Assembly (NCBI GenBank): GCA_902798365.1
Contig: CADBWP010000011.1
Span: forward strand, 1-53,460
Source: an uncultured Ruminococcus sp.
GTDB taxonomy: Bacteria; Bacillota; Clostridia; Oscillospirales; Acutalibacteraceae
Direction: 5' to 3'
DNA length: 53,460 nt
This document shows, in pieces, positions 10,248-22,146 of the stretch; position 1 is the first letter of the stretch; each line of letters begins with the position of its first letter. Below the pieces are notes generated by a model that was not told the origin of the DNA, did not search any database, and was given only the letters and a program-made list of their open reading frames with translations. The position numbers and the translations under genes were made by a program.

Positions 10248-11669
10248 ATGAAAGCAATCAAAAGAACCGTTTCCGTTCTGCTTTCCCTGATGCTTGTTCT
10301 CGGAATGATGACAATCGGCATCAGCGCAAGCGCTGCGGGAATCAGTACAGTAACAGTCACATCCAACTTAGGCGACAACGGTACAGTCAAAATTGACGAA
10401 AACACCCAGACGGTGACCGTAACCTACAAGCTCCAGAGCACCAACGGCATTGCCAATGTTCAGGGCGTGGTTACATTCGATCCCGCAGTGCTCACCTACA
10501 ATTCCTATTCTGCACCCGTTCTTACAACCGGCGGCAGCGCCATCGTTAACACCGCTAAGGTTGCTCAGGGCAGATTCCTTATCAATGCCACCAGCGCAGA
10601 CCTTTATGATTACACCGAAAAGGATACCGTTGTTGCGGTAACCTTCAACGTTGCAAACGCAGCCAATACTACCGTTAACATGGAGTATCAGGTTATCACA
10701 GCCAACACGGCTACCTCGGAACCCACAAGCGCTACCGACGTATCTCTTGTTGACTATGAGTACATCAACCCCGACTCAAGCCTTTCCAGCACAGACGTAG
10801 CTGCGGAAGCTGTTCCTCCCGTACAGGAGCCCGGCCCCATATACAACTACACCATCCGTGATTTCCTCAGAGCTGCTTCCCTTAACCTCCAGGGCAAGAT
10901 CGGCGTTAACTTCGGCTTTAAGCTTCCCGCAGACCTCGGCAACAAGACCGTTAAGGTAGTCACCTCCGCACCCGGCCTTGAGGAGCAGGAAGACATCATT
11001 ACACCCTCCAACCTCAACACCACATACTTTGTATATGCAAAGATGATGACAGACGACATTACTATAAGCGTGTATGTTGACGACGCTTATGTTGACAGCT
11101 ATACTTACTCGGTTGTTAAGTACGTTAACAGCAACGCTGTAAAGAACGGCGCTGCAAACCTTAAGAACCTTGTTTATACCATGGCTAACTACGGCGCAGA
11201 GGTTCAGAAGCAGTTTGACTACAAGACCGATTCTCTTCCCAACGCACAGACCGGTTATGCCCTCGTTCCCGTTGCGGGCTCGGATATTCCCGACACCCGT
11301 TCCTACAACAGGACAGACCTCGACGCTACAGGCGTTACCTTCTCCGGTGCATCTCTTGACCTTCAGAGTGATACAGCTATCAACTTCACCTTTAAGAACG
11401 CAGCAACCGCAACCGCAACCGCTAACGGCGAGGCCATTGATCCTTCTTCCGTAAACGGAACGACCAAGGTCTTCACCATCAAGAACATCCGCTCCAGCCA
11501 GCTTGACGATCCCCAGACTCTGGTAATCACCCAGAACGGCAAGAGCGCAACACTCGGTTGGTCGGTACTCGACATCTGCAGATCCTACATCAACCAGGGC
11601 GGCGATACCAAGGATACCGCAATGGCTCTCTACAGATACAGCGAGGCTGCTAACGCTTACTTTGGTTAA
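10248..11669 (+). CDS. Secreted protein with N-terminal cohesin-like domain
   Basis: A 473-residue protein with a clear Sec signal peptide (about 1-30, ending ISASAA). Residues of about 35-165 resemble a cohesin/carbohydrate-binding beta-sandwich (VTYKLQSTNGIANVQGVVTFDP...VVAVTFNV). The rest has two related beta-rich segments around FLRAASLNLQGKIGVNFGFKLP and LDLQSDTAINFTFKN. Each is followed by a short helical segment containing NLVYTMANYGAEVQKQF or ICRSYINQG. No dockerin, sortase motif or membrane anchor is seen, so it is probably released or bound non-covalently. Strong promoter and ribosome site suggest high expression. A 41-residue peptide gene follows 49 bases later. Function unknown; a scaffold or binding role is inferred from the domain. 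Confidence 0.75.
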   Translation: MKAIKRTVSVLLSLMLVLGMMTIGISASAAGISTVTVTSNLGDNGTVKIDENTQTVTVTYKLQSTNGIANVQGVVTFDPAVLTYNSYSAPVLTTGGSAIVNTAKVAQGRFLINATSADLYDYTEKDTVVAVTFNVANAANTTVNMEYQVITANTATSEPTSATDVSLVDYEYINPDSSLSSTDVAAEAVPPVQEPGPIYNYTIRDFLRAASLNLQGKIGVNFGFKLPADLGNKTVKVVTSAPGLEEQEDIITPSNLNTTYFVYAKMMTDDITISVYVDDAYVDSYTYSVVKYVNSNAVKNGAANLKNLVYTMANYGAEVQKQFDYKTDSLPNAQTGYALVPVAGSDIPDTRSYNRTDLDATGVTFSGASLDLQSDTAINFTFKNAATATATANGEAIDPSSVNGTTKVFTIKNIRSSQLDDPQTLVITQNGKSATLGWSVLDICRSYINQGGDTKDTAMALYRYSEAANAYFG

Positions 11670-15111: not shown

Positions 15112-15280
15112 TTAAGGCAATACCGCATAATTCAGGTGTGCGGATTGCGAAGTAAGATTTTTCGTCAGGGTGCACAAACAAATTGAGGTAAGGCTGACGC
15201 CTTGCCGAGACTTTTTGGGCAGGCTGACGGAACAATATTCAAGCAAGCCGTGCGCCTTGAATTGTGCGGTGTTGCCTTAA
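15112..15280. repeat. TTAAGGCAA element, copy 1 (full length, 169 bp)
   Basis: MITE-like element with inverted ends TTAAGGCAATACCGCATAATTCA and the matching right end TGAATTGTGCGGTGTTGCCTTAA (one or two differences). It has an inner hairpin GGTAAGGC/GCCTTGCC followed by a T-run, which could act as a terminator. It encodes nothing credible. Its right TTAA supplies the stop codon of the purA-like gene. Related copies are at 30284-30405 and 43402-43486. Confidence 0.85.
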
Positions 15281-16461
15281 ATTATGTCGCGCGAAAACGG
15301 CGTTGATGACAAATATATTCTGTCAAAGGCGCCGCCGTATGTTTTTATCCATTCGCTTTGAGCAAGGTCGCCGCCTGCGGTCAGCAGTTTTCCGCCGGTT
15401 TCGTTGAGGTGGGTGACAAACAGCGAGAGCGTGTGCGGCGCGGCGGCCTTTATGTCGTCGGTTACCGGGCGCAGAAAATCCCCGGGGCTGCCGTGCCGCG
15501 CAAAGCGCAGGCTGCCCTGCCATTCGTTGGTTATGTTGGTGCGGTCGGTAATATTGTAACGTGTCTTTATGCCGCTGTCCTCGTGCGGCAGAGATCCCGC
15601 GCCGTGTCGGGTGACATAGGCGCGCGTGACATACACCACCTCGGTATCGGCGCCGGGCAAATGCTTCTCTATAAACCGCGCGGCGTTAAAAACGCCCGTG
15701 CGCGAGGATGTGAGGTGCGGCGCGAACTCTGTGCGGTTTTCGTCGAGCAGCAAGCCCTGTGCGCCCTCAAATATCACCTCGTCATACCCCTGCGCGACGT
15801 CGCCGCCGGTAAGGGTGACAAGCTCCGCGTTTCGCTTCATGCGCTCGGCGGCGTTTCGCAGCACAGCGTCGCTTTGCAGCAGCTCGCCGTACTCTCCTGC
15901 CTCAGACAGCGAAAGGTCAAGCTCTGCAAGGCGAATAGCGAGGTACCGCAAGCGAACAGCCCTGAGCCTGTGGTACAGCTTCTCGGCGGTATCGGTCACA
16001 ACGGTTTCAAGAGAACGGCAAAACCGCTTGGAGCGCTGAACCGCCTCGTCTATGCCCATGCCGCAGCTTCCGTGGCGGTCGGCTCCGCGGCGGGTTTCGA
16101 GCGCCATGTTTATTAAAACGTCGTCGATATATACGCAGCGGCATAAGGGCGAGGCAAAGACCACAGGAATCCTGTGCCCCATTGCGGCAAGCTCTGCCGT
16201 CTCTTCGCCGAGCTTGTACATATCGGGGAGAAAATCTTCTGCCCAATAGGTGAGAGCGCCTCTAAAAGAGCCCGAAGAGAGCTGATGAAACACCATGCGT
16301 TCTCCGGGCAGATCTACGGTATGACCCGCCTGAGCGCCGCCGTTGAAGCGGACGGTCAGGCAGTCTTTGTTGTTTTGCCGGGCAAGACGGGCAAAGAAGT
16401 CCGTCGCCAGACCCTTGCCCTCGTCGCCGAAGTTTTTTCCTATTATTATCCTTGCGTTCAT
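15277..16461 (-). CDS. Divergent adenylosuccinate synthetase-like ligase
   Basis: A 394-residue protein of the adenylosuccinate synthetase family, which joins IMP and aspartate using GTP. The GTP loop GDEGKG (catalytic Asp13) and GGAQAGHT (catalytic His47) are kept, as are FEGAQG-LLD, LTSS and VGAG-like TRHGAGSLP. The loop that binds aspartate in the housekeeping enzyme (TTGRRRRTGW) is replaced by QGSLRFARHG near residues 315-324, and the protein is shorter than E. coli PurA (432). I therefore avoid the symbol purA. The ATG at 16461 overlaps the upstream VWA stop by one base (TGATG). It is the last gene of a four-gene operon, so a paralogue with another amine donor or product is plausible. 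A plain but divergent PurA remains possible. Confidence 0.75.
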   Translation of the reverse strand: MNARIIIGKNFGDEGKGLATDFFARLARQNNKDCLTVRFNGGAQAGHTVDLPGERMVFHQLSSGSFRGALTYWAEDFLPDMYKLGEETAELAAMGHRIPVVFASPLCRCVYIDDVLINMALETRRGADRHGSCGMGIDEAVQRSKRFCRSLETVVTDTAEKLYHRLRAVRLRYLAIRLAELDLSLSEAGEYGELLQSDAVLRNAAERMKRNAELVTLTGGDVAQGYDEVIFEGAQGLLLDENRTEFAPHLTSSRTGVFNAARFIEKHLPGADTEVVYVTRAYVTRHGAGSLPHEDSGIKTRYNITDRTNITNEWQGSLRFARHGSPGDFLRPVTDDIKAAAPHTLSLFVTHLNETGGKLLTAGGDLAQSEWIKTYGGAFDRIYLSSTPFSRDII

Positions 16462-17342
16462 CAAAGACTGATTCCCGCTATGGCTGCGCGGACAATGTCC
16501 TTTGTGCTGCCCTGCCATTGATTTATAACGTCCTCGCGCGGGGTTCCGTTTGCCATTTGCATTATTGAGGTGATGACCTCGGACAGGCAGTCGATGTTTT
16601 TGGATGACAGCGCGGCATTTCTGCCGGGAAGGAACTTGTTCCAGGTCTGATACGCCTTTTGAACCTGATAGCCCGTTACGATGTGGAATATCTCGTACTT
16701 TTGGCTCGCCATATAGCGCAATTCCTCCAAATCGAAATAGCTGCCCACGGAGTCGCCGAACACAGACTTGATCTCGTAGGCGGACAGCCTTTCGCCCTCA
16801 TCTCCGCCGCAGACCTCGTCGCCCACGCAGAAGATAAAGCCCTTTTTGCCGCGCTTTTCAAAGCAGTCGGTGCGCGTGTGCTTTGCGGCAAAGTACCACA
16901 CAAGCGAATCGTAGCTGTAGCGGTTGCCGCCCATTCCCACCTTGAGCTCCAAAAGCTGTTCCACAACGCGAATGTCCGCCTCGAACTGCGTCACCTGCAA
17001 GCCCGTATCGGCAACGGGCGAGGTAAAGGGCGCGCACATAACGTGCGGATTGGTTACGGGCTGCTTGTCGTATATGTATGTGATGGTTTTGTTGAGCGAG
17101 TTTTTGGCGATCTCGGCAGCCAAATAACCCATTGAGCCCGTGACGTCAAAGCCTATGATTATCGGCGTTGACAGGGGCGAGTCCGCGCTGTCGCAGGATT
17201 CGCGCATCTCGATGAATTTGGGGTTGTACTTGTCCTGAATCCTGTTGTCTTTAAAAATCTGTTCCGCTCCCGACGCGTTGTTTATGCCGCGGCTTTGCTT
17301 GAGCTTTGTCCAGTCGCTTGCGCGATAGCTTCCGTAACCCAT
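16461..17342 (-). CDS. VWA-domain protein 2
   Basis: A 293-residue cytoplasmic protein with no signal peptide or membrane segment. The MIDAS-type motif is D66-V-T68-G-S70 (IIIGFDVTGSMGYLA), so a divalent-metal von Willebrand A fold is expected. Other conserved blocks shared with the neighbouring gene are LQVTQFEADIR, WYFAAKHT and DCFEKRGKKGF. The two proteins start alike (MGYGSYRASDW / VGRGSYTAGDW), so they are tandem paralogues. Start at ATG 17342 after an AAGGAGG site, 12 bases past the previous stop. VWA proteins usually mediate protein-protein contact, often with ATPases or kinases; the partner is unknown here. Confidence 0.75.
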   Translation of the reverse strand: MGYGSYRASDWTKLKQSRGINNASGAEQIFKDNRIQDKYNPKFIEMRESCDSADSPLSTPIIIGFDVTGSMGYLAAEIAKNSLNKTITYIYDKQPVTNPHVMCAPFTSPVADTGLQVTQFEADIRVVEQLLELKVGMGGNRYSYDSLVWYFAAKHTRTDCFEKRGKKGFIFCVGDEVCGGDEGERLSAYEIKSVFGDSVGSYFDLEELRYMASQKYEIFHIVTGYQVQKAYQTWNKFLPGRNAALSSKNIDCLSEVITSIMQMANGTPREDVINQWQGSTKDIVRAAIAGISL

Positions 17343-17354
17343 AAAGTTACCTCC

Positions 17355-18278
17355 TTAAAAAGATATTATATTCTTCTTTTTCGCGGCGGGTCGAACGTCG
17401 ATAAGCGCTATCGAACGGGCGATGACCTCCGCCGCGTTTTGATCCATGCTTTTGAGCGCGGCGTTTGGCGGCGTGCCCGCGGCTACGGAAATGATCGCCG
17501 TGATGAGCTGCGCCAAACAGCCTATGTCTTTTTTGTGTATCTCGGTCGCGCAGCCCGGCATGAGCTCGCGCCAGTCGGCAAGCGCTTTTTTTGAGCCTGC
17601 CGCGCCTGTGTCTATGTGAATGTGGAACACGTGGTATTTTTCGCGCACAAGGCGCAAAAGCTCGGCGTTGCCCTGCGCGTAGGGAACCTCGTCGCCGAAT
17701 ATGCGGCGAATCTCCGCCGTTTCAAGCCTGGGGTGGCAAAGGTCGTCGCCTATGGTGAACAAAAAGCCCTTGCCGCCGCGCTTTTCAAAGCAGTCTGCCG
17801 CCGTGTGACGCGCGGCAAAATACCACAGCAGGTTGTAGGATTCGCCGCCGTTGCCGCCGCCTCCGCCCTCGAGGTAAAGCTCGGTGAGCTGGCGGATGAT
17901 GCGTATGTCCGCCTCAAACTGGGTTACCTGCAAGGGTGACGCGTCGCTTTTGCAGTCGCCTATAGCCGCGCACAAAAGCTGCGGGTTCGATATGGGCTTT
18001 TCGTCCAAAAGGCTCATAACGGTTTTGTTAACGGCGTTAAGCGCCAGCTCGCGCGCCAGATAGCCCATTGAGGCGGTGACGTCAAAGCCTATTATCACGG
18101 GTGTAGCCTCGGGCGAATCCTCGCTGTCGCGCGACTCGCGCACGGGTATTGTGTTGACGGAATAGCGGCTGTGTGCCGCTGTCTGTGCAAACAGCTGCCG
18201 CTCTGTGCTCTTTTCGCTGAACGAACGGCTTGAGCGCAGCGCCGCCCAGTCGCCTGCGGTATAGCTTCCTCTGCCCAC
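17355..18278 (-). CDS. VWA-domain protein 1
   Basis: A 307-residue paralogue of the following gene. The MIDAS motif is D66-V-T68-A-S70, at the same residue numbers as in VWA protein 2. I chose the GTG at 18278 because its first residues (VGRGSYTAGDW) align with the paralogue's N-terminus and GAGGT lies eight bases before it. The ATG at 18374 would add 32 Arg-rich residues read through the upstream gene. A Gly-rich insert (LEGGGGGNGGES) replaces the MGGNRYSYDS of the paralogue. The upstream stop is only five bases away, so the two are translationally coupled. Confidence 0.72.
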   Translation of the reverse strand: MGRGSYTAGDWAALRSSRSFSEKSTERQLFAQTAAHSRYSVNTIPVRESRDSEDSPEATPVIIGFDVTASMGYLARELALNAVNKTVMSLLDEKPISNPQLLCAAIGDCKSDASPLQVTQFEADIRIIRQLTELYLEGGGGGNGGESYNLLWYFAARHTAADCFEKRGGKGFLFTIGDDLCHPRLETAEIRRIFGDEVPYAQGNAELLRLVREKYHVFHIHIDTGAAGSKKALADWRELMPGCATEIHKKDIGCLAQLITAIISVAAGTPPNAALKSMDQNAAEVIARSIALIDVRPAAKKKNIISF

Positions 18279-18283
18279 GGCGT

Positions 18284-19252
18284 TTACCTCGCGTTTCCGT
18301 AAATTTGCTCGTCGTCGGCGTTCATGCTTATAAATTTCCGTTCGCCGTATGCCTTGATGAGCATTTCGTCCCAATAGGCAAAATCGTCATATGCGTTGCC
18401 CCTTGGCTTGCTGTTGATAAAATCAGCGAGCGCCTTTGGCACGTCGTCGGTCACGCGCACCTCGCCTGCCTTGGCATAGCCCAAAAGATTTGCCGCCGTG
18501 TCGCGCAAAGCCGTAAGGTTCTGCTCTGTTTTGAGCACGCCGCCGCGCGTTGCCGTGTTGCGGCGGTCTGCCTCCCACCAGCCGCCGTAAAGGCTTGCCT
18601 GATGGGTGTATGGATTTATATAAAGAGAATTGACGTTTATTGCAGGGTGAACCAGCGCGTTGTATTCGAGCACGCAGCACAGGTTTTCCATGCGGCTGAT
18701 TATCCACGCCACGTGCCTGCCGGGCAGGTTGCCGAACAGACAGAGCGGATATTCGTCCATGTCCTTTGAAACAACAAGCACACAGGTGCCGTCGCAAAGC
18801 TCAAAGCCGCCGCTGATGGTCGGGAAAAAGCTTTGCAGGCTGCGAGTGTCGGCAGAGGGATAGTCGAGAAGCGACACAGCGCGCCTGAACCTCTCCGACC
18901 CTGCCGCTCCGTCGGTCAGAAAGTGAAAAATTATATTGCGCCGCGCAACATATACCTCAACCCCGGGCAGGGTATAGCTGTACATGTATTTTATCTCTAT
19001 GCGGCTGCCGTCGGTGCAGTCAAACGCCTGCTCGTCGGCATCCTGCCAAAGCGCGTCAGCCTTAAGCCTGCGAGCCTGTTCGTCCGCTCCGCCCGACAAA
19101 AACTCGGTCATTCTGCGGTAAAAGCCGCGAAAATAGTCGGTGTCCTCGTGATTGAGCACATATTTGGTGCCGCAGTAATGACACACCGCCGTCATGCCGG
19201 AGGCGTCGAGCAGCATGGGTGCGCCGCAGTTTTTGCAGTTAAGGTGTTTCAA
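18284..19252 (-). CDS. Zinc-ribbon protein with degenerate kinase-like region
   Basis: A 322-residue protein and first gene of the VWA operon. An N-terminal zinc ribbon has ligands C6, C9, C24 and C27 (CKNC...CHYC). Residues of about 95-290 are reminiscent of a protein kinase C-lobe: VAWIISRMENL, then VHPAINVNSLYI (201-212), which occupies the place of a catalytic loop HxDxKxxN, then LYGGWW (221-226) in place of DFG. The catalytic Asp, Lys and Asn positions read Ala204, Asn206 and Ser209, so if the alignment is right this is a pseudokinase. No transmembrane segment is seen. Promoter TTGCGG-17-TACAAT lies upstream. The kinase assignment is inference from motif shape; the zinc ribbon is direct. 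Confidence 0.65.
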   Translation of the reverse strand: MKHLNCKNCGAPMLLDASGMTAVCHYCGTKYVLNHEDTDYFRGFYRRMTEFLSGGADEQARRLKADALWQDADEQAFDCTDGSRIEIKYMYSYTLPGVEVYVARRNIIFHFLTDGAAGSERFRRAVSLLDYPSADTRSLQSFFPTISGGFELCDGTCVLVVSKDMDEYPLCLFGNLPGRHVAWIISRMENLCCVLEYNALVHPAINVNSLYINPYTHQASLYGGWWEADRRNTATRGGVLKTEQNLTALRDTAANLLGYAKAGEVRVTDDVPKALADFINSKPRGNAYDDFAYWDEMLIKAYGERKFISMNADDEQIYGNAR

Positions 19253-19278: not shown

Positions 19279-19307
19279 ATTGTATCATATATACGGTGTT
19301 GCCGCAA
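19279..19307 (-). promoter_or_regulatory. Promoter of the zinc-ribbon/VWA/ligase operon
   Basis: Minus strand TTGCGG (19307-19302), 17-base spacer, TACAAT (19284-19279) with an extended TGA just before it. The leader is about 25 bases and ends with AGGGGAAGTGATTTG before the ATG. Confidence 0.65.
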
Positions 19308-19346
19308 TCCAAAATATACCGCAAATCTTTGTGCAAAACGACAAGA

Positions 19347-19368
19347 CCGGCGGAGCTAACTCCGCCGG
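19347..19368 (-). terminator. Terminator whose loop holds the stop codon of the DUF2974 gene
   Basis: CCGGCGGAG pairs perfectly with CTCCGCCGG. On the minus strand the loop contains the TAG stop (19358-19356), so the last codons (GRRS) form part of the stem. The sequence after it is moderately T-rich (TCTTGTCGTTTT). Confidence 0.7.
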
Positions 19369-20483
19369 CCGCGCTTTGTTGTGTTTTGACTGCTCCGCTT
19401 TTTCTGCTTTGCGGTTTTGAACAGGTTTTTGCCCGCCGATTTTATCAGCTTTCCGCTTTGCGACAGAATAAGCGCGCGGGTCCCGGGCTTCATGCTTTTT
19501 ATTGAGCCGAGCATTTTTGCTATGCTCTTAAGCAGGTTGTCCGCCATTTCGTCAAAGGTATCGACGTCGGCGCCCGTCACCAGCTCATACAGGCCGCTTA
19601 TCAGCCTTTGCTTTTCCTCCGCGCTCATGCCGTCGATAAATTCCTTGAGCGTCCGGTCAAAAAACACGCTTGTGGCTGTGGTTTGGGGCAGGGTAATAAG
19701 CTCTGTGCGCTCAACGTCCCACGAATATATGTCATGCTGCAAAAAGCCCCTGCGGCTGCTGCGCACCACCGTGTAGCTTTCCATATGCTCAAACAGCATA
19801 CCGAAAACCGAGGACTGCGGCACAAGGGTGTGTATTCGCTCCTTTATGCCGCAAAAGCCGCTGCCCTCAAGGCTTTTTCGTTCAAAGCCGGGGCCGTCCA
19901 GGCTATACACGGCGTCTATTCTTTCTCTTATACTCTCGGTGCAAAACGAAGCGGCATACACCGCCAGATTGCCGCCCTTTGAGTGGCCGCCGAGTATAAG
20001 CCTTCCGTCGCCTTCGGCAGCTGCCTCAAGATAGGCGAGAGCCTTTTTCTGCGACGGAAACGGAAAGTGGCAGAACATGTAAAAATCCTCCTGCCAGCCC
20101 ACAACGGTGTTGTCGGTGCCGCGGTAGGATATAAACCGCCTGCCGTCGGGCAGGGCGACGGTGAGCGCCGCAAACTGCATCCACGCGCTGCCGTCAACTA
20201 TGTTGACATAGTTTGTTATCTTAAGACCGCCGAACCTGCCGCTGTCGGCGGCTGCGCGCAAAAGCTCGGCGTCGCCCTTCCAAAGCACGTTTTCGGTTTT
20301 GCTGCCGTATGCAAAAAAGCGGTCGGCTGCCTCGCGTATCGTCAATGCCGTGCCCGTGCTCACTATTCCGTCAAGCTGCAAATAAGACAGGCGCGACAGT
20401 ATCACCGCGTCAACGGTGTTAAAGCCGTCGGCGGTCATGCTCAGGTCGCCGCGCCAGTTGATATAGTCAAATACATTTGCCAT
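19356..20483 (-). CDS. DUF2974 (Mbeg1-like) alpha/beta hydrolase
   Basis: A 375-residue lipase-like protein. The nucleophile elbow is GGHSKGGNLA with Ser168; FISYRGTD upstream would form part of the oxyanion region and YSLDGPGF follows. This matches DUF2974/Mbeg1 proteins, which are common in Firmicutes and of unknown substrate. The C-terminus is strongly basic (KNLFKTAKQKKRSSQNTTKRGRRS is the type of tail seen). I chose ATG 20483 after GGAAGGTGA; the ORF start 26 codons upstream would precede the promoter. Promoter TTGATA-17-TATAAT (20531-20503) fits this start. No signal peptide, so it is probably cytoplasmic. Confidence 0.82.
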   Translation of the reverse strand: MANVFDYINWRGDLSMTADGFNTVDAVILSRLSYLQLDGIVSTGTALTIREAADRFFAYGSKTENVLWKGDAELLRAAADSGRFGGLKITNYVNIVDGSAWMQFAALTVALPDGRRFISYRGTDNTVVGWQEDFYMFCHFPFPSQKKALAYLEAAAEGDGRLILGGHSKGGNLAVYAASFCTESIRERIDAVYSLDGPGFERKSLEGSGFCGIKERIHTLVPQSSVFGMLFEHMESYTVVRSSRRGFLQHDIYSWDVERTELITLPQTTATSVFFDRTLKEFIDGMSAEEKQRLISGLYELVTGADVDTFDEMADNLLKSIAKMLGSIKSMKPGTRALILSQSGKLIKSAGKNLFKTAKQKKRSSQNTTKRGRRS

Positions 20484-21264: not shown

Positions 21265-22146
21265 ATGAGTCATATATTCAAAAAGCTTACGGCTGTTTTA
21301 GTATCTGCGGTTTTGGCGGCAACGCTTTGCGCCGCGCCTGCGGCTGCCGCTGAGGTCGAAAACAATACCGACCTTCACATTATCTGCACGTCAAACGTAT
21401 TCGGAACCGCCGACATGAGCATAACTCAGCTTGACGAGGCTTTTGACGGCAACTCTTATGTTACCGTGCAGTATCTTGTGCGAGCCGAAAATCAATATCT
21501 GATAAATGCAAGCCTCAACGCAAACTCTCACATCTCTTACGACAAAAACGTGCTCGCGCTTGCGGACGAATACAACTCGGTGACCATAGGAAGAAACACC
21601 CTTCCCTCGGTGTTCCGCACGGTTATTGAGCAGAACTGCGGAGCAGGTATGCCTAACCTTATGTTTGCAGGCAATGTATATGGCAATTTTGCCTCTATGC
21701 AGCCGCCCATATATGCCTATAACGACACCGAGCCCGTTGTTGTCATCCAGCTTCGGTTCAGGGTGCTCGACAGGACTGCCGGCGAAACAAAAATAGACTG
21801 CAACCTTGACGCGCTTTGCTTCTGCGACACAAACGTTTCGGAGCCCTACGCCCAAAACAGAGCGGTGGTTTCGGGCAAGGTGAACAGCGACGTGATGAAC
21901 GGCATAGAGACATCTACTCAGATACACCCCATGGCAGCCGGAGATTTGAACTATGACGGCAAAATAAACGCCAGGGACAGGATAGAGCTTACCAGATATA
22001 TCGCAAAGTGGAGCGGCTACGAATTTATAGACACCTACAGCGCTGCAAGCATAGACGGCAGCGAGGGTATAAGTGCCAAGGACAGAATAGCGCTTACCAG
22101 ATATATTGCAAAGTGGAACGGCTACGAGACCCTTCCCAAAATATAA
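21265..22146 (+). CDS. Secreted cohesin-like/dockerin type I protein
   Basis: A 293-residue secreted protein. The signal peptide is about residues 1-29 (ending APAAAAE). A beta-sandwich domain (about 32-205) belongs to the same family as the C-terminal repeats of the CotH protein at 44387 (shared VTV-Y-L, YD..L, NVYGNF, V-I-LRFRVLD). The C-terminus is a dockerin with two calcium-loop repeats, GDLNYDGKINARDRIELTRYIAKWSGYE and a second starting IDGSEGISAKDRIALTRYIAKWNGYE, each truncated here only in description. Dockerins bind cohesins on scaffoldins in cellulosome-type assemblies (known). A GGGGAGG ribosome site and a strong terminator frame the gene as a single unit. Confidence 0.85.
   Translation: MSHIFKKLTAVLVSAVLAATLCAAPAAAAEVENNTDLHIICTSNVFGTADMSITQLDEAFDGNSYVTVQYLVRAENQYLINASLNANSHISYDKNVLALADEYNSVTIGRNTLPSVFRTVIEQNCGAGMPNLMFAGNVYGNFASMQPPIYAYNDTEPVVVIQLRFRVLDRTAGETKIDCNLDALCFCDTNVSEPYAQNRAVVSGKVNSDVMNGIETSTQIHPMAAGDLNYDGKINARDRIELTRYIAKWSGYEFIDTYSAASIDGSEGISAKDRIALTRYIAKWNGYETLPKI

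Follow-up and report, generated by a model that had tools for sequence, protein, structure and literature searches.

A four-gene operon in an uncultured Ruminococcus is one copy of a conserved PurA-like and VWA gene module shared by gut bacteria, plasmids and large phages

We analyzed a stretch of 53,460 nucleotides (the window) from an uncultured Ruminococcus sp. (assembly GCA_902798365.1, contig CADBWP010000011.1), in which four minus-strand genes between positions 15277 and 19252 form an operon. In order, they encode a zinc-ribbon pseudokinase (18284..19252, 322 amino acids, TTG start) with an N-terminal CxxC...CxxC ribbon and a kinase-like body; a divergent VWA protein, VWA1 (17355..18278, 307 amino acids, GTG start), which carries DxTxSM and begins with a conserved Met-Gly tail; a second VWA paralogue, VWA2 (16461..17342, 293 amino acids, ATG start), with 44% identity to VWA1; and a PurA-like ligase (15277..16461, 394 amino acids), which keeps the GDEGKG, GHT, and EGAQG cores and carries N-x-W-Q-G-x-L-R in place of the aspartate-binding loop. 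The successive gaps are 5, 12, and −1 nucleotides, the ATG of the ligase gene at 16461 sharing one nucleotide with the VWA2 stop; genes, coordinates, and spacing are all as given by the original prediction, which was made from this sequence alone. These genes represent a conserved module, which is found together far more often than chance would allow in gut bacteria, on plasmids, and in large phages.

A likely promoter for the four genes, read by eye on the minus strand at 19279..19307, has the form TTGCGG-17-TACAAT, with five of six consensus matches in the −10 element and an extended TGn ahead of it. It is present as predicted, but calling it clear was an overstatement, as the weak −35 element matches at only three of six positions and the site is absent from the list of promoter-like sites returned by a consensus scan of the window.

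Pfam finds no VWA domain in either of the window's VWA proteins. The assignment to this fold, with its metal ion-dependent adhesion site (MIDAS), nevertheless held when the family was aligned profile to profile with canonical VWAs: the alignment spans 165 columns (P = 4.9e-5, HH-suite probability 68%), and two control alignments gave P values of 0.36 and 0.45. The MIDAS-type DxTxSM motif is invariant in all 71 rows of one family alignment (A5). In a smaller, 13-row alignment (A1), the Rhizobium phage sequence has DxSxSM and the mycobacteriophage sequence is without the Met. A search of the PDB gave no match up to E = 10, either with the VWA alignment or with VWA2 alone. Residue 2 is Gly in 71/71 rows of A5, which were trimmed at the profile start, with a Met-Gly start in 70 and Thr-Gly in one (L039). 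A larger count of Met-Gly starts is partly true by construction, since its 146 rows were selected by a Gly-containing pattern; of 11 rows outside that pattern, nine start with Met-Gly and two are cut by contig ends. This conserved N-terminal tail, which lies ahead of a variable linker, suggests a site of partner docking.

The third component has a kinase-like body, and the profile of its family matches StkP, VRK3, and PknA (best E = 1.6e-4) as well as DnaJ. The lack of catalytic residues, first noticed in the single window protein, proved to be nearly family-wide, with the HRD Asp present in 9/76 and the DFG Asp in 4/76 of the pseudokinase rows.

To ask how often these genes occur together, we used the VWA family as the sole query. 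In bacterial and archaeal genomes, this gave at least 587 pattern-matching stretches; confirmation succeeded for at least 580, and the 80 best were analyzed; 78 of these 80 come from records named as Clostridia-type and two from other groups (L083 and L092). A PurA-like gene is present in 78 of the 80 loci and a pseudokinase in 76, so the possibility that the genes are mostly separate in relatives did not materialize. The distance from the VWA gene to the PurA-like gene has a median of 2 nucleotides and is at most 60 nucleotides in 76 of 78 cases. A single VWA gene is commoner than two (48 vs. 32 loci). Three loci with missing partner genes (L033, L053, and L065) sit at contig ends. The most frequent neighbor family outside the core, which by eye reads as an ABC ATPase, occurs in no more than 18 of the 80 loci. 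The expectation that the four genes act as a set was likewise borne out by their independence from the flanking genes of the window, as the neighborhood recurs with metG in only 1/80 loci and with DUF2974 in 0/80 (threshold of E = 1e-10 for both). A link of the operon to metG or DUF2974 was rejected on account of this near-absence.

The operon is patchily distributed, being found in 3 of 98 relatives and, across the class, in 8 of 391 genomes, with the window's own genome counted in both. Among six relatives from the same genus, picked from 60 for their close metG matches, metG and tatD are present without the operon in all six. Only in the window's own genome did a single contig hold both DUF2974 and metG among the matches listed, and no empty site was seen.

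The same module is carried by phages. Both window VWA proteins match phrog_2971, a phage family with no assigned function (E = 5e-25 and 2e-39). Among viral contigs, 334 of 364 VWA matches were confirmed and 80 were kept; the PurA-like gene is present in 75 of these 80 loci and the pseudokinase in 37. The reverse scan, which started from the PurA-like family and had some contigs in common with the first, found a VWA gene at 74 out of another 79 viral loci; of the five loci without one, three begin about 1 kb or less from the end of a contig. Among named phage records, the VWA occurs in 206 (Mycobacterium 188, Rhizobium 10, Vibrio 6, and others 2), and the PurA-like protein matches 225 at E ≤ 1e-3, some of which are probably other PurA homologues. 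In the mycobacteriophage Pleione, the order is a Ser/Thr-kinase-like gp265, the VWA gp266, gp267, and the PurA-like gp268. PMC9476963, in describing genes conserved across cluster C1 mycobacteriophages, mentions a Ser/Thr kinase and, separately, a PurA-like gene, but does not present them as a system.

On plasmids, the VWA was found in 21 records, from which nine loci were fetched. Eight of these carry the PurA-like gene, eight a pseudokinase, and seven an adjoining NUDIX gene with a winged-helix tail. Three of the nine (L012 to L014) served to build the NUDIX profile, and the further plasmid matches are L011 (fragmentary), L288, L289, and L292, the last being a close relative of L013. In the Allorhizobium protein, the tail matches Pfam NrtR_WHD (E = 2e-15). 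This neighbor, of the NUDIX and winged helix-turn-helix type, hints at the sensing of a nucleotide-type ligand.

Some individual loci are recorded here in their own right. The copy on the Methylorubrum extorquens AM1 megaplasmid (L291:5025-6958) has a short VWA reading frame, and the copy on Allorhizobium pAtS4e (L012:1-16885) adjoins a type VI secretion VgrG gene and a group of AAA/DUF5682/DUF4132 genes. In Vibrio phage Va1, a TROVE/Ro-like protein, named by eye, lies downstream of the module (L008:13354-14862). A lone VWA with no PurA-like or pseudokinase gene nearby (L331:6006-7103) belongs to a genome in which the module is present as well.

What precedes the VWA differs between bacteria and phages. 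Scored by simple patterns, the zinc ribbon is present in 75/76 bacterial pseudokinases (four of which also have HPD/HSD), and HPD/HSD is present in 32/37 viral ones; most phage and plasmid pseudokinases have a J-domain-type start in place of the ribbon. A second phage family upstream of the VWA is rich in methionine (L133:5198-5947 and 40 other viral loci), with no Pfam match in the one member scanned, and it co-occurs with the pseudokinase in 0/163 viral loci. Of the 116 unique viral VWAs that have over 2.5 kb of sequence ahead of them, 42 have a pseudokinase, 32 have the Met-rich protein, and none has both, against 11.6 expected (P = 2.3e-8). A related Met-rich protein occurs in 11 of the 41 viral loci with neither adaptor, and in nine of these it matches the profile at E ≤ 4e-4. 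Where a recognized adaptor fills the slot ahead of the phage VWA, it is one or the other of these two mutually exclusive, interchangeable proteins.

The distribution and the state of the kinase bear on one explanation in particular, in which the operon is a TerY-P-like phosphorylation or metal-sensing switch in anti-phage defence whose effector happens to be a nucleotide enzyme of the PurA fold. According to PMC11090510, TerY-P triads join a VWA, a zinc-ribbon Ser/Thr kinase, and PP2C, VWA duplication is also seen in some CoCoNuT systems, and stand-alone defences are said to include TerY-P-like modules whose kinase has an OB fold; the patchy spread of the operon counts for such a switch as well. 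However, the HRD Asp has been lost in 67 of 76 pseudokinases and the DFG Asp in 72 of 76, and by eye there is no recurrent PP2C-type neighbor among the 45 largest neighbor clusters. Five proteins compared with the PADLOC 2023 models gave no match at E up to 1. Carriage by many phages is also a poor fit to defence, unless the module serves to exclude competing phages. We consider this explanation unlikely.

The ligase is evidently homologous to PurA (E = 5e-32). Each of the ten genomes found to carry the VWA, among the relatives and the genomes of the class, has exactly two matches to PF00709, one scoring 525 to 549 bits and one scoring 93 to 145 bits, and it is always the weaker copy that adjoins the VWA on the same contig. 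In the window's own genome, the full PurA lies on another contig (549 bits) and the window copy scores 110 bits. In the phylogeny, all 78 PurA-like proteins form one clade (support 0.994, stem length 1.02) that excludes the housekeeping PurAs as well as the PurZ of phage phiVC8. The ligase is not the sole housekeeping PurA copy of its genome, and housekeeping identity was ruled out by the separate clade together with the full copy in 10/10 genomes.

We then compared the residues of the 78 family members with those of 30 housekeeping PurAs of the same phylum (the loci with usable sequence out of 31) and the phiVC8 PurZ. The phosphoryl-transfer residues are kept: Asp13, Lys16, His47, and Gln235 are present in 78/78 and Thr251 in 75/78, the equivalents of PurA Asp13, Lys16, His41, Gln224, and Thr239. 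One phage member (L135:3403-5925) contains a LAGLIDADG intein exactly between the His and Thr of the GHT motif, and inteins favor active-site motifs. Other active-site columns differ. In PurA, Thr301 is part of the L-aspartate-binding loop; its column holds Gln315 in 78/78 PurA-like proteins. The Val273 column holds His286 in 78/78, Asn309 is likewise invariant (78/78), and the Arg303 column is Arg in 5/78 compared with 30/30 housekeeping PurAs. R303 of E. coli PurA contacts free aspartate, as stated in PMC8342488. Judged from these columns, the L-aspartate site of the family is predicted to be changed, with the phosphoryl-transfer residues retained.

The simplest alternative is an ordinary second adenylosuccinate synthetase under altered regulation, which still joins IMP (inosine monophosphate) and L-aspartate into adenylosuccinate. 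The shared fold, the intact phosphoryl-transfer core, and an Arg319 kept in 77 of the 78 members all speak for it. The replacement of both the Thr301 and Val273 columns in every member, the near-loss of Arg303, the full PurA already present in all ten genomes, and the near-obligate linkage to a VWA speak against it, and together they leave it very improbable.

A PurZ-type enzyme, making 2-aminoadenine precursors for DNA, is what the database names imply: the ligase matches phrog_1211 (E = 2e-48), labeled "2-aminooxy adenylosuccinate synthetase." Several GenBank members from Rhizobium, Vibrio, and Mycobacterium phages bear the same PurZ-type label despite their kept Asp13. In the recent survey PMC12884076, each of the 147 PurZ sequences from phages has Ser in place of Asp13, whereas the family studied here keeps Asp13 in 78/78; it is therefore neither a standard PurA nor a PurZ. 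The one PurZ that we compared falls outside the clade, and the NCBIfam PurZ model gives a score of 37.7 against a cut-off of 300. Identity with the Z-genome enzyme was ruled out on Asp13 and on the position of phiVC8 PurZ, its likelihood being close to negligible, and the PurZ-type name on these phage genes is probably a propagated misnaming. By subtraction from numbers in the same survey, 365 of 767 PurA-type sequences from phages and prokaryotes belong to neither the PurA nor the PurZ group, and we infer that the present family is among them.

The tree also bears on where the module came from. The 45 PurA-like proteins from Firmicutes group together (support 0.69) amid 29 sequences from phages and 4 from plasmids, as might be expected if the operon were a phage nucleotide-metabolism or counter-defence operon, remaking or neutralizing a nucleotide- or NAD (nicotinamide adenine dinucleotide)-type metabolite, that was captured and kept by Clostridia. 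Consistent with this, phage copies lie near genes that read by eye as NMN (nicotinamide mononucleotide) adenylyltransferase-like (9/80 viral loci) and NAMPT-like (10/80), and NUDIX genes with winged helix-turn-helix tails adjoin the plasmid copies. However, NAD genes are general in jumbo phages, according to PMC7824862, and the recurrent neighbors of the bacterial copies are, by eye, unlike phage genes. The backbone supports of the tree also range from 0.12 to 1.00, and its outgroup consists of only 30 PurAs of the Firmicutes phylum and one PurZ. A phage origin of this kind is possible, though we hold it to be rather doubtful.

Three points lay beyond the view from a single sequence: the wide spread of the module in large phages and on plasmids, the predominance of bacterial loci with one VWA over those with two, and an aspartate site that appears changed. 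The explanation that we favor, tentatively and at somewhat less than even chances, is that the module is mobile and encodes a ligase, controlled by the VWA and an adaptor, which would join a purine nucleotide to a partner other than aspartate. Its core, common to phages, plasmids, and bacterial chromosomes, would be the PurA-fold ligase and the VWA, to which most copies would add a third, adaptor subunit, be it a zinc-ribbon pseudokinase, a J-domain-type pseudokinase, or, in phages, the Met-rich protein. Because the equivalents of Asp13, Lys16, His41, Gln224, and Thr239 are retained, the enzyme would, like PurA, use a nucleoside triphosphate to phosphorylate and so activate the C6 oxygen of a 6-oxopurine nucleotide, whether of the IMP type or another. 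Because the aspartate pocket appears changed, the purine would then be transferred to a nucleophile other than free L-aspartate. The tight linkage, together with the fact that VWA, J-domain, and zinc ribbon are all partner-binding folds, leads us to propose that the VWA and adaptor would recruit, present, or gate the second substrate, or else the signal that sets off the reaction. The likeliest setting for such a module would be phage–host conflict or nucleotide-pool stress. The original idea that the set might make or use a modified purine nucleotide fits the active-site pattern.

Several observations weigh against this ligase explanation. In the enzyme itself, Arg319 aligns to a loop arginine in 77/78 members, in the region where the alignment is weakest, and the exchanged residues might fine-tune the enzyme while its amine donor stays the same. 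The Lys of an [NT]KxD-type nucleotide motif, present in 22/30 housekeeping PurAs, is gone in 78/78; because this Lys is lost throughout but the Asp of the motif is kept in 36/78, the altered motif would leave the nucleotide donor ambiguous. The linkage has real exceptions in a lone VWA with no PurA-like or pseudokinase gene nearby (L083:7001-7873) and in a locus without the pseudokinase (L092). A second VWA in the genome G421 stands alone, this genome also carrying a complete pair, and a Rhodovulum plasmid locus is without the PurA-like gene; these last two exceptions leave the main linkage pattern unchanged. The Methylorubrum plasmid locus is without a recognized pseudokinase, and about 30 of the 116 unique viral VWAs have no recognized adaptor. 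The window pseudokinase gave no tblastn match to phage records up to E = 0.1, so its kinship to the phage pseudokinases rests on profiles. Lastly, the NUDIX profile matches just 1/80 Firmicutes loci and 11/159 viral loci, the latter weakly (18 to 38 bits) and perhaps as NMN adenylyltransferase-NUDIX proteins.

A more specific form of the favored explanation, which we think quite improbable, is that the PurA-like enzyme attaches the purine nucleotide to a protein amine presented by the VWA and a chaperone-like adaptor ("purinylation"). A protein substrate is conceivable because partner binding is what the J-domain, zinc ribbon, Met-rich stretch, and VWA have in common, and the acceptor amine would possibly be the N-terminal glycine of the VWA itself. 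If true, purinylation would be a new covalent protein modification common to phages and bacteria, with IMP minus water adding about 330 Da. More generally, the fold of a purine-biosynthesis enzyme has seemingly been turned into a mobile module with a VWA and interchangeable adaptors, and identifying what it makes would bring to light a nucleotide metabolite or a protein modification not described before.

As for the surroundings of the operon, a terminator-like hairpin on the minus strand at 19345..19370 (an 11-pair stem with 9 GC pairs) follows the upstream DUF2974 gene and precedes the operon, and the consensus scan places a separate promoter-like site at 15105-15077, ahead of metG. The scan found seven terminator-like sites in the window against a shuffle mean of 7.2, i.e. 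no excess, and seven promoter-like sites against 2.3 in shuffles, i.e. an excess. Elsewhere in the window, 10248-11669 and 21265-22146 encode two secreted-type proteins; the second has two dockerin-like repeats, read by eye, which suggest cellulosome-type genes in the window's genome.

We found no description of this gene set or its function in the open-access literature, and its likeness to known systems is partial in each case. With PurA (PF00709), the ligase shares the fold and the phosphoryl-transfer residues; PurA has the TTGRRR aspartate loop and Val273, whereas the PurA-like family has N-x-W-Q-G-x-L-R and a His, forms its own clade, and nearly always has a VWA alongside. To PurZ and PurZ0 of Z-genome phages, the likeness is that of a phage-encoded PurA paralogue, and the difference is the Ser for Asp13 in PurZ. 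The phage side of the VWA family, phrog_2971, is a sequence cluster without an attached function or system. In VMAP ternary systems and MoxR-VWA pairs, the VWA is a partner-binding subunit. The present module resembles them in that role of the VWA; by eye, no MoxR-type AAA+ ATPase is among its recurrent neighbors. The closest kind is the TerY-P triad, in which a VWA, which can be duplicated, and a zinc-ribbon kinase-like protein also share one operon. Membership was rejected, given the lost kinase catalytic residues, the N-terminal ribbon, and the absence of a PP2C from the window operon and, by eye, from the recurrent neighbors (no PP2C profile was run). The gene set that was originally recognized is thus real, and its suggested Ter-type link, with no intact kinase and no recurrent PP2C-type neighbor seen, holds as an analogy only: TerY-P combines a PP2C with a Ser/Thr kinase that bears a C-terminal ribbon, whereas the window operon combines a ribbon-first pseudokinase with a PurA-like ligase.

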